This document shows, in pieces, positions 47,218-49,718 of a stretch of DNA of 64,000 nucleotides; positions within the stretch are counted from its first letter, which is position 1; every line of letters begins with the position of its first letter. The stretch spans positions 62,001-126,000 of the forward strand of contig JANLFK010000001.1 of the NCBI GenBank assembly GCA_024655945.1, given 5' to 3'. Under the pieces are notes generated by a model that saw only the letters and a list, made by a program, of their open reading frames with translations, was not told the origin of the DNA and ran no database searches. The position numbers were made by a program, and so were the translations under genes. The stretch comes from a candidate division KSB1 bacterium. Its GTDB lineage: Bacteria > Zhuqueibacterota > Zhuqueibacteria > JANLFK01 > Oleimicrobiaceae.

Positions 47218-47229
47218 GCTTGCTTACAG

Positions 47230-47302
47230 TGGAGCTGAACGGATTTGAACCGTCGACCTCTTGTCTGCCAGACAAGCGCTCTCCCAGCTGAGCTACAGCC
47301 CC
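47230..47302 (-). tRNA. tRNA-Ala (anticodon GGC)
   Basis: Acceptor GGGGCTG/CAGCTCC; the G3-T70 pair is the G3-U70 identity element of tRNA-Ala. Anticodon loop CTGGCAG, T arm ACGGTTCAAATCCGT, discriminator A. Confidence 0.95.
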
Positions 47303-47392: not shown

Positions 47393-48607
47393 CTAACTCC
47401 CAGAGGAACGGGCCTCCTTCCCAGCCAAATGTTCCACGGCCGAACGGAGCCAGGCCACCGTGGCGGGCAAATGCTCTCGCTGCCCTCCTGCCACCTCCAC
47501 AAAGTGGGGGCGTCCGCCTCCTTTGGCGCCGAGACGAGTGCAGAGTTCCGGGACGAGCGCCCGTAGGTCAGCACCGGAAAGCCTGGTACCCACCGCCAGG
47601 TGCACGGCCGGGGCCGACTGCGCCAAGATGACTGTTGGGATGCCGCCATCGAGGAGTTGGAATGCCAGTTTGCGCACGAGCGCCCAGTCGAGGCCCTCCA
47701 GTTCTTCCACCACTTGGAGTATCGAATCCGGTTGAGTCGAGAGAAGGCTTTCCCGCAGGGCAATCAGAAGGCGCTCCTGACTTGCGCGAAGTTGCCTGGT
47801 GGTGTTTTGCAGCTCCTCACGCAACTTGCGCACTGAGGACAGTACCTCCCCTTCGCCAGTCGTCAGCTCGCCAGCCAACGCCTCCAACGTCGCGGCCTTC
47901 TGCCCATAGTCGCGCACGGCGCGCTTTCCCGCCACAAAGCGAAACCGCAGATGTCCCCGGAGCTTCTCTCTCCCCACAATCTTCACCAGGCCGACTTCCC
48001 CAGTTGCGGCCACGTGCGTTCCACTGCAAGGGTCAAGGTCAAAATCGGCAATCTCGATCAGGCGAATGCGGCCGTTGACTGCGGGCCTCTTGCGCAGGGG
48101 AAGCTGCGCGGCTTCATCCGCCTCCACAAAGTAGCTGCGCACGGGGCGATTTGCCCAGAGCACGCGATTAGCAAGCTCCTCCGCGGCGGCGAGGGTTTCC
48201 TGGTCGATCTCGCCAAGCGCAAGCTCCAGGGTAGAAACCTCCTCGCCCAGATGGGAGGAAAGAGTCTGCGCACCGGTCACGCGCAAGAATGCCTGGGCCA
48301 GGACGTGGAAAGCAGTGTGCTGTTGCATAAAGTCAAAGCGGCGCTCCCAGTCCAGGCTGCAGCGCACGTTTGCCCCCTCGGCCACATGTCCGCGTACCTT
48401 GTGGATGACCACCCCATCCTCTTCAACCACATCTTCGACTGGGAATCCGGCCAATTGCCCGGTGTCATGCATCTGTCCGCCTGACGTGGGGTAAAAGGCA
48501 GTTCTGTCCAGTATGACGGCACAACCGTGGTCGACAGGCCTCACCTCGACGACTTGCGCCTCAAATTCTCGCAAGTAGGCATCAAGCCAGTAAAGTCGCT
48601 CCGTCAT
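47393..48607 (-). CDS. Free-standing alanyl-tRNA editing protein (AlaX-like with DHHA1-type C part)
   Basis: 404 residues. Hydrolyses wrongly charged Ser- or Gly-tRNA-Ala. An N-terminal second-additional-domain-like part (YPTSGGQMHDTG, 40-50) is followed by the editing core with the zinc ligands HTAFH (97-101) and CSGTH (194-198), a coiled coil (about 240-280) and a C-terminal DHHA1-like domain that includes LGAKGGGRPHFVEVAGG. This is the long AlaX form. It starts 51 bases after the selenoprotein candidate and is followed 90 bases later by tRNA-Ala(GGC), its likely substrate. Confidence 0.9.
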   Translation of the reverse strand: MTERLYWLDAYLREFEAQVVEVRPVDHGCAVILDRTAFYPTSGGQMHDTGQLAGFPVEDVVEEDGVVIHKVRGHVAEGANVRCSLDWERRFDFMQQHTAFHVLAQAFLRVTGAQTLSSHLGEEVSTLELALGEIDQETLAAAEELANRVLWANRPVRSYFVEADEAAQLPLRKRPAVNGRIRLIEIADFDLDPCSGTHVAATGEVGLVKIVGREKLRGHLRFRFVAGKRAVRDYGQKAATLEALAGELTTGEGEVLSSVRKLREELQNTTRQLRASQERLLIALRESLLSTQPDSILQVVEELEGLDWALVRKLAFQLLDGGIPTVILAQSAPAVHLAVGTRLSGADLRALVPELCTRLGAKGGGRPHFVEVAGGQREHLPATVAWLRSAVEHLAGKEARSSGS

Positions 48608-48658: not shown

Positions 48659-49654
48659 TCACTTGGGACGTGCACCTGGATTCTGCATCAGAGAGGCGCG
48701 CCACTCTTCCAGCCGCTTCTTGTGCTCTTTCAACACTGCCACCATCTCAGGATCGTCAGGAAAAGAGTCATCTAAGGGCTTGTCTTTCGCGCTAAACGAT
48801 GTCACTCCTTGTTCATCGATCTGCGCGTTGGCCACGCGCGCCAGCTTGCCCTGTCGTCCCCCGGGCAGGAACAGCACACCATTCTCCAGCGATGCCTCCT
48901 GGTTCTGGTAGCCTGAGTTGCCCACCACCACGACGTGAATGCCCTCCACCTTCTCGACGAGCTCATGGGCTTCACCCCAGGTCATGAAGGTGAGAAGAAC
49001 AATAGCATCGCACTGTTTGCGAAGGGCAGAAACTGCGTTTTGCACCTCAGGCACTGGGTCCGCAAAGCGGGCCTTTTCCGTCCCAGGAGGCGGTTGCCAG
49101 CTGAGCTCGTAAGATGGGCTAACCCCGATGACGCCGATCGAAAGCTCCCGCTTGCTCCCTGCAGAAGGAACGCGCACAATGCGGTACGCAGGAAGCAGCC
49201 TGTTGCCCTTCTCGCCATAGGCATTGGCTGAGATCAAAGGCACGCCGTCTTTCTTGCTCTGTTCGACCAAGGGGAGCGCGCCATGCGCAAAGTCCCGCTG
49301 GGCGGCGTTGATGGCGTGATACCCCATCTTGGTGAGCCCCTTGAGGATGTATTCCGCCTTGAACTTATTGAGCGTACCGGCCCCGGCGTTGAATCCCCCG
49401 GCATCGACAAGGAGCCACTGGGTACCTTTCATCTGTTGCTTGATGTAACTGGCTCGCCGAGCCAGCCCGCCGGCGCGGCCTTCACCTCAGCCGCACGGCT
49501 CCAGGTAGCCGCAGATGTCGGCCGAGTAGAAGATGGTCAGCTCGACCTTTTCGCCCGGTTTGACCTCAGGCGCGCTCGCCCCGAAGAGCACACACGCCAC
49601 CGCCGCAAACAGCTGAAGCATGCTTTTCCTGTAAGACATCATGAACCTCGCCAT
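48659..49654 (-). CDS. Candidate selenoprotein: exported metallophosphoesterase-like protein with in-frame TGA (LEPCG-Sec)
   Basis: 331 residues if TGA at 49487-49489 is read as selenocysteine (residue 56). Before it: ATG at 49654 with GGAGGAG, a signal peptide (MLQLFAAVACVLFGASA, 12-28) and ADICGYLEPCG. After it in the same frame: GEGRAGGLARRASYIKQ, then LVDAGGFNAGAGTL, GYHAINAAQRDFAHG and VVVGNSGYQNQ. Exported relatives of 5'-nucleotidases carry a motif of the form LEPCGC...GGLARR, so the TGA replaces the second Cys. The usual DxH and NHE metal motifs are altered, so phosphoesterase activity is doubtful. A hairpin follows the TGA. A nonsense mutation is the alternative, but both halves look intact. 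Own promoter; followed by the alanyl-tRNA editing gene. Selenocysteine machinery is not in the window. Confidence 0.72.
49449..49465 (-). promoter_or_regulatory. SECIS-like hairpin downstream of the in-frame TGA
   Basis: Minus strand CTGGCT, loop CGGCG, AGCCAG. The loop starts about 28 bases after TGA and has G at its second position (or forms a seven-pair stem with loop GGC). Bacterial SECIS elements usually have the apical loop 16-37 bases after UGA with an early G. Since the DNA also codes for GGLARRAS, the pairing could be partly accidental. Confidence 0.45.
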
Positions 49655-49678: not shown

Positions 49679-49718
49679 AATATAGAAAACTTCACACAAA
49701 ATGCAAACCCTTTTGTGT
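49679..49718 (-). promoter_or_regulatory. Promoter and overlapping inverted repeat for the selenoprotein candidate
   Basis: Minus strand TTTGCA (49707-49702), 17 bases, TATATT (49684-49679), giving a leader of about 18 bases. ACACAAAA (49694-49701) and TTTTGTGT (49711-49718) are perfect eight-base arms around the -35 box, a position suited to a repressor. Confidence 0.55.

Follow-up and report, generated by a model that had tools for sequence, protein, structure and literature searches.

A candidate selenoprotein gene of the UshA-like PCGU family, in a short haem-less form, from a candidate-phylum bacterium (KSB1 group)

The gene and its surroundings

The window analysed here, a stretch of 64,000 nucleotides from a candidate-phylum bacterium (KSB1 / Calditrichota group), carries on its minus strand the gene of a putative UshA-like selenoprotein (48659..49654), a short haem-less form of the UshA_like_PCGU family. 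The frame comprises 331 codons from an ATG at 49654 and ends at a final stop TGA (48659-48661, minus strand). It is interrupted by a single internal TGA (49487-49489, minus strand), which is kept in the same-genus relatives and across phyla and which, when read as selenocysteine (U56, in a P-C-G-U motif), gives the translation ...ADICGYLEPCG-U-GEGRAGGLARRASYIKQ.... Downstream of this codon, 275 intact codons run to the terminal TGA, a stop-free stretch with a chance probability of about 5e-5 at the local base composition, and the G+C content differs between codon positions in this frame, as it does in coding DNA. The first-pass annotation of this DNA had placed the TGA between YLEPCG and GEGRAGGLARRASYIKQ, followed by a downstream half of 275 codons, and the translation agrees with it on each of these points.

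The start that aligns in the relatives is the Met at residue 6 (ATG 49639). Since the same-genus relatives have no Met at the position of ATG 49654, the alignment favours the downstream start, and the protein probably has 326 rather than 331 residues. The motifs GGAGGAG and GCGAGG can be read in the sequence upstream of the candidate ATGs. With regard to the promoter claimed earlier, a sigma-70-like site at 49707..49679 (9/12 matches, against a chance expectation of 0.3) would fit it, but such a site proves little. The proposal that the protein is exported is in line with a predicted N-terminal signal peptide (49570..49639, minus strand), a hydrophobic helix ending near ASA|PE, which appears in the sequence and which the AlphaFold model of the 326-aa form shows as a helix spanning residues 2-20; some homologues have a lipobox in place of such a signal peptide.

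The neighbours of the gene encode an alanyl-tRNA editing-type protein, a DUF4384 protein and a phosphotransacetylase. The first of these lies directly downstream of the selenoprotein gene (47393-48607, minus strand) and is a stand-alone form with a tRNA-synt_2c tail and a tRNA_SAD domain, adjoined by a tRNA-Ala(ggc) gene at 47229-47302.

Decoding of the in-frame TGA

The genome that contains the window encodes a tRNA-Sec with the anticodon TCA (75.2 bits; G000:C1:593177-593271, L001), with selB (350 bits) only 0.9 kb away, as well as selA (568 bits) and selD (402.5 bits), the last accompanied by a second selD. The search for sel genes proposed together with the initial claim has therefore recovered selA, selB and selD along with tRNA-Sec, and not a genome devoid of them. 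The second selD (G000:C19:45713-46648, L159) has an in-frame TGA of its own, which makes it a candidate Sec-containing SelD, beside a 748-aa frame that carries the other selD. A survey of KSB1 has reported selC as absent (PMC9012183). Clear tRNA-Sec genes, scoring 69-75 bits, were also seen in the genomes G003, G016, G036 and G042, which belong to the same class; the class clusters with KSB1 records.

Both same-genus relatives, G001 (86% identity) and G002 (68% identity), have the same TGA, and neither shows the TGT or TGC that had been named in advance as evidence against selenocysteine. The decay of the downstream half, named alongside it, is not seen either: in comparison with G001, dN/dS is 0.113 downstream of the TGA (dS 0.46), and purifying selection is apparent on both sides of the codon. 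In comparison with G002, synonymous sites are near saturation and the TGA is still unchanged. Across many phyla, a TGA occupies the family position in about 85 non-redundant homologues. The 80 loci from named genomes comprise 69 with CxU and 2 with CxxU, and among their sources are KSB1, Calditrichota, Eisenbacteria, Krumholzibacteria, Gemmatimonadota, Chloroflexota, Myxococcota and Planctomycetota. Within the class of the window genome, the family profile is matched in 61 of 63 genomes, most with one TGA inside, some of these matches being canonical 5'-nucleotidase paralogues.

The first-pass annotation had described Cys forms with a Cys at the place of the TGA, and such forms do exist, reading CGC...GGL(A/S)RR. 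In G012 (L160) the position is TGC (motif CGC), and neither selB nor selA has a match above its cut-off; this member is nested among Sec members with 100 SH-aLRT support in a quick-search tree of 95 homologues. In G190 (L165), searched for selA with no match at all, the position is TGT, and the planctomycete homologue L122 likewise has Cys aligned with U. The occurrence of TGC and TGT forms in genomes without over-cut-off sel genes is what selenocysteine biology predicts. One genome, G008 (L163), combines the TGA form and a selA with no selB above the cut-off and just a borderline tRNA-Sec match (47 bits); it is listed as 100% complete, and our guess is that an assembly gap is the simplest account of its sel set. 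A 2014-aa ORF of a Phycisphaeraceae member (L116) contains an N-terminal related domain with C-R-T-C, a CxxC motif, in place of C-G-U.

Folding, a bSECIS model and a codon test all point to a bSECIS hairpin at 49447..49467 (minus strand), with a stem of 8-9 bp and the apical loop GGC at 49458-49456. The hairpin spans 21 nt and begins some 20 nt downstream of the TGA; its loop lies 28 nt after the UGA, and its folding energy is -12.7 kcal/mol. These values lie within the limits of the published bSECIS model, which allows a loop of 3-9 nt with G in the first two loop positions, a stem of 4-16 bp, a spacing of 16-37 nt and an MFE of at most -7.5 (PMC13188914). In G002, one stem pair has changed on both sides, from U-A to C-G. 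A search of the SECIS region against Rfam gave no matching family. For the window alone, nothing stands out in the plain z-score for folding of the full SECIS region, and across the family the mean MFE z-score is weak (-0.74 vs -0.31 in control windows, p=5e-4), so a codon-constrained pairing test was used in its place; a permutation test is confounded by GC content and was not relied on.

The pairing test covered 83 non-redundant genes, with expectations drawn from the codon usage of each gene and 2000 simulations. CGG serves as the first Arg codon in 70 of the 83 genes (18.0 expected), the third bases of the Ala and Arg codons are paired in 75 (32.3 expected) and those of the Leu and Ala codons in 69 (35.8 expected). 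All three conditions hold together in 57 of the 83 genes, vs 3.2 expected and a simulation maximum of 10, although the genes are related and the simulation overstates their independence. Among non-Sec homologues that share the protein motif, only 1 of 9 satisfies all three. The hairpin is thus maintained via synonymous codon choice.

Could the TGA be an ordinary stop, or a nonsense mutation, followed by a decaying remnant or by a separate protein? An ATG-started ORF of 257 aa (ATG 49432) does exist downstream, and the first half by itself is a plain short ORF under table 11. Nevertheless, this account appears extremely improbable, because the codon that dozens of homologues from different phyla have kept is TGA and no other stop, with purifying selection on both of its sides and with Cys as its replacement in genomes without over-cut-off sel genes. 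Moreover, initiation at the internal ATG would lose the conserved GGLARR, which is located between the TGA and that ATG. The sel genes, the conserved TGA, the Cys homologues and the SECIS element all favour the original reading of the codon, and it is almost certain, on comparative evidence rather than protein chemistry, that selenocysteine is incorporated at this TGA. Judging from these comparisons, the window gene very probably does encode a true selenoprotein, and it is a short, under-annotated member of an already listed family.

Family membership and the remodelled metal site

The best NCBIfam match of the protein is NF041198 (UshA_like_PCGU, 'UshA-like (seleno)protein'), with an E-value of 4.7e-40, and the comparison of the joined protein with databases that had been suggested at the outset thus leads to this family, in which some homologues have Cys aligned with U. 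The score of 137.6 bits is below the curated cut-off of 275, and strictly the protein is not called by this equivalog model. The shortfall is attributable to the absence of the haem half, a C-terminal c554-type tetrahaem domain; a relative with the fused domain (L024) reaches 308.1 bits. From the length of the model and its two-stretch match, we infer that NF041198 covers the C-terminal multihaem region. NF041198 matches all 68 of the aligned members, and the window protein shares with it the N-terminal exported metallophosphoesterase-like domain, the P-C-G-U motif followed by GGLARR, the SECIS-type hairpin and a C-x-U motif with an in-frame TGA at the family position. It differs in having about 330 aa, in matching only profile positions 4-260 of 519 and in lacking the tetrahaem domain. 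The related NF049981 (UshA-like (seleno)protein family 2, CxxU) has a similar fold with a Sec-TGA near the same place, as in L064 and L094 (C-P-T-U), whereas the window protein has CxU and scores 47.6 bits against it (cut-off 140). Membership in the UshA-like CxU/PCGU family can therefore be assigned with high confidence. In annotation, short members such as this one, whose scores are below the curated cut-off, would come out as two ORFs, a truncated one of 70 aa and another of 257 aa.

The suggestion that the protein is absent from the usual selenoprotein lists does not hold. The COG0737 UshA-like CxU family was listed in 2008 by Zhang and Gladyshev, with 76 Sec and 92 Cys forms (PMC2398784), it is also found in reviews of 2022 (PMC9312934) and 2026 (PMC13188914), and it corresponds to NCBIfam NF041198. 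None of these three lists states a function for it.

The region 48700..49540 (minus strand) is predicted to adopt a 5'-nucleotidase/UshA-type metallophosphoesterase fold in which most of the metal ligands are replaced, as indicated by the structural model (pLDDT 93.3), by Foldseek, whose best matches are 5'-nucleotidases (2z1a at E 1.6e-21), and by alignment. A Pfam search of the protein gave no match, Metallophos included. With UshA and the 5'-nucleotidases (2z1a, CD73, 1ush) and with SoxB (TIGR04486), the protein has in common the fold of the N-terminal domain, the GG.ARR helix and the equivalents of two metal ligands, D46 and D84, which are the only ones left relative to canonical homologues. 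Unlike these enzymes, it is devoid of most metal ligands, the catalytic His and the C-terminal nucleotide-binding domain, and has gained the CGU loop. The replacements are His43 by C48, Asn116/His117 by Q119/R120, His217 by F223 and the HxH motif by N246/G248; at the position equivalent to His43, His is not the common residue among members. The earlier remark that the metal motifs of this fold are altered is thereby confirmed, and with most of the two-metal and catalytic ligands lost, a phosphohydrolase of the usual kind is unlikely. A canonical 5'-nucleotidase paralogue is encoded by a separate gene of the same genome. The most conserved elements of the whole family are PCGU, GGxARR and D84, and the alignment places C54-G-U56 at the edge of what was the metal site, in the loop that joins beta-strand 1 to helix 1.

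Many of the relatives have an additional domain. Four CxxCH motifs, in a Cytochrome_C554-type domain, follow the PCGU domain in 39 of the 95 homologues of the tree set, and Cytochrome_C554 (PF13435) is matched by all 32 aligned fused members; L024, L035 and L032 are examples of relatives with the fusion. This tetrahaem domain, fused to the PCGU domain in relatives, is absent from the window protein, whose translated sequence has no CxxCH motif. In the tree of 95, the window genus falls in a branch of 22 rows, all of them short, while some of the 'short' labels outside this branch may reflect contig ends. As for a detached partner in the same genome, the only C554-type match is an unrelated pentahaem cytochrome.

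Possible role of the Cys-x-Sec site

Taken as a whole, the locus is very likely explained by an exported UshA-like selenoprotein in which SelB and tRNA-Sec, guided by the hairpin loop 28 nt after the UGA, would insert selenocysteine at U56, with a probable Cys/Sec redox centre. C54-G-U56 would form this centre, as a selenenylsulfide, and a redox role of the Cys-x-Sec pair seems likely, in agreement with the first-pass annotation: C-G-U is invariant beside a dismantled metal site, and relatives have a haem fusion. Because the metal site is dismantled and the invariant C54-G-U56 sits in the adjoining loop, Cys/Sec redox chemistry is a likelier role than hydrolysis, and the haem domain fused in relatives suggests electron exchange. 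In the fused relatives, the c554-like tetrahaem cytochrome may pass electrons to the C-G-U site or take them from it, and the odds are about even that such cytochrome-coupled electron transfer is the ancestral mechanism. As the haem domain is missing in the lineage of the window protein, a separate periplasmic redox partner would be needed there. Somewhat tentatively, the PCGU family might represent a redox-repurposed 5'-nucleotidase fold, that is, a periplasmic Cys/Sec oxidoreductase with an attached tetrahaem domain and an unrecognised type of selenoenzyme, of which the window lineage would be a haem-less form with a separate partner.

Two other roles can be weighed against a redox centre. 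The protein could be a metal-dependent hydrolase of the 5'-nucleotidase or SoxB kind, in which C54 and U56 replace His as metal ligands and the selenocysteine is not a redox residue. The kinship in fold and sequence with 5'-nucleotidase and SoxB is consistent with this, as are the retention of D46 and of the nearly invariant D84 and the position of the C-G-U loop, which comes after the lost His43; yet the window protein retains none of the residues equivalent to Asn116, His117, His217 and His252/His254, and the tetrahaem cytochrome fusion of many relatives indicates electron transfer, which renders the hydrolase unlikely. A loss of catalytic ligands with no conserved partner genes at about 75 loci would also suit a module that binds or senses without catalysis and whose Sec site forms a structural bond only. 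However, conservation across the family is highest at PCGU, GGxARR and D84, and selenocysteine is costly and usually catalytic in selenoproteins, so that such a module appears quite improbable. Three features offer concrete handles on the function of the family: the fusion to a tetrahaem cytochrome, the loss of the metal site, and an exchange of Sec for Cys that occurs naturally in a genome where neither selA nor selB has a match above its cut-off.

Gene-neighbour clustering over the same 75 or so loci found no conserved redox partner and only lineage-specific neighbours, namely an outer-membrane PorV/OmpA-like protein, an NHL-repeat-like protein, a helicase and sometimes a second UshA-like copy, all named from reading the sequences and not from profile hits. 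A second UshA-like-looking ORF lies near the Sec gene in L064, L086, L088, L106, L107 and L109 according to the clustering (of these, the L109 copy alone was read), and tandem copies may thus occur.
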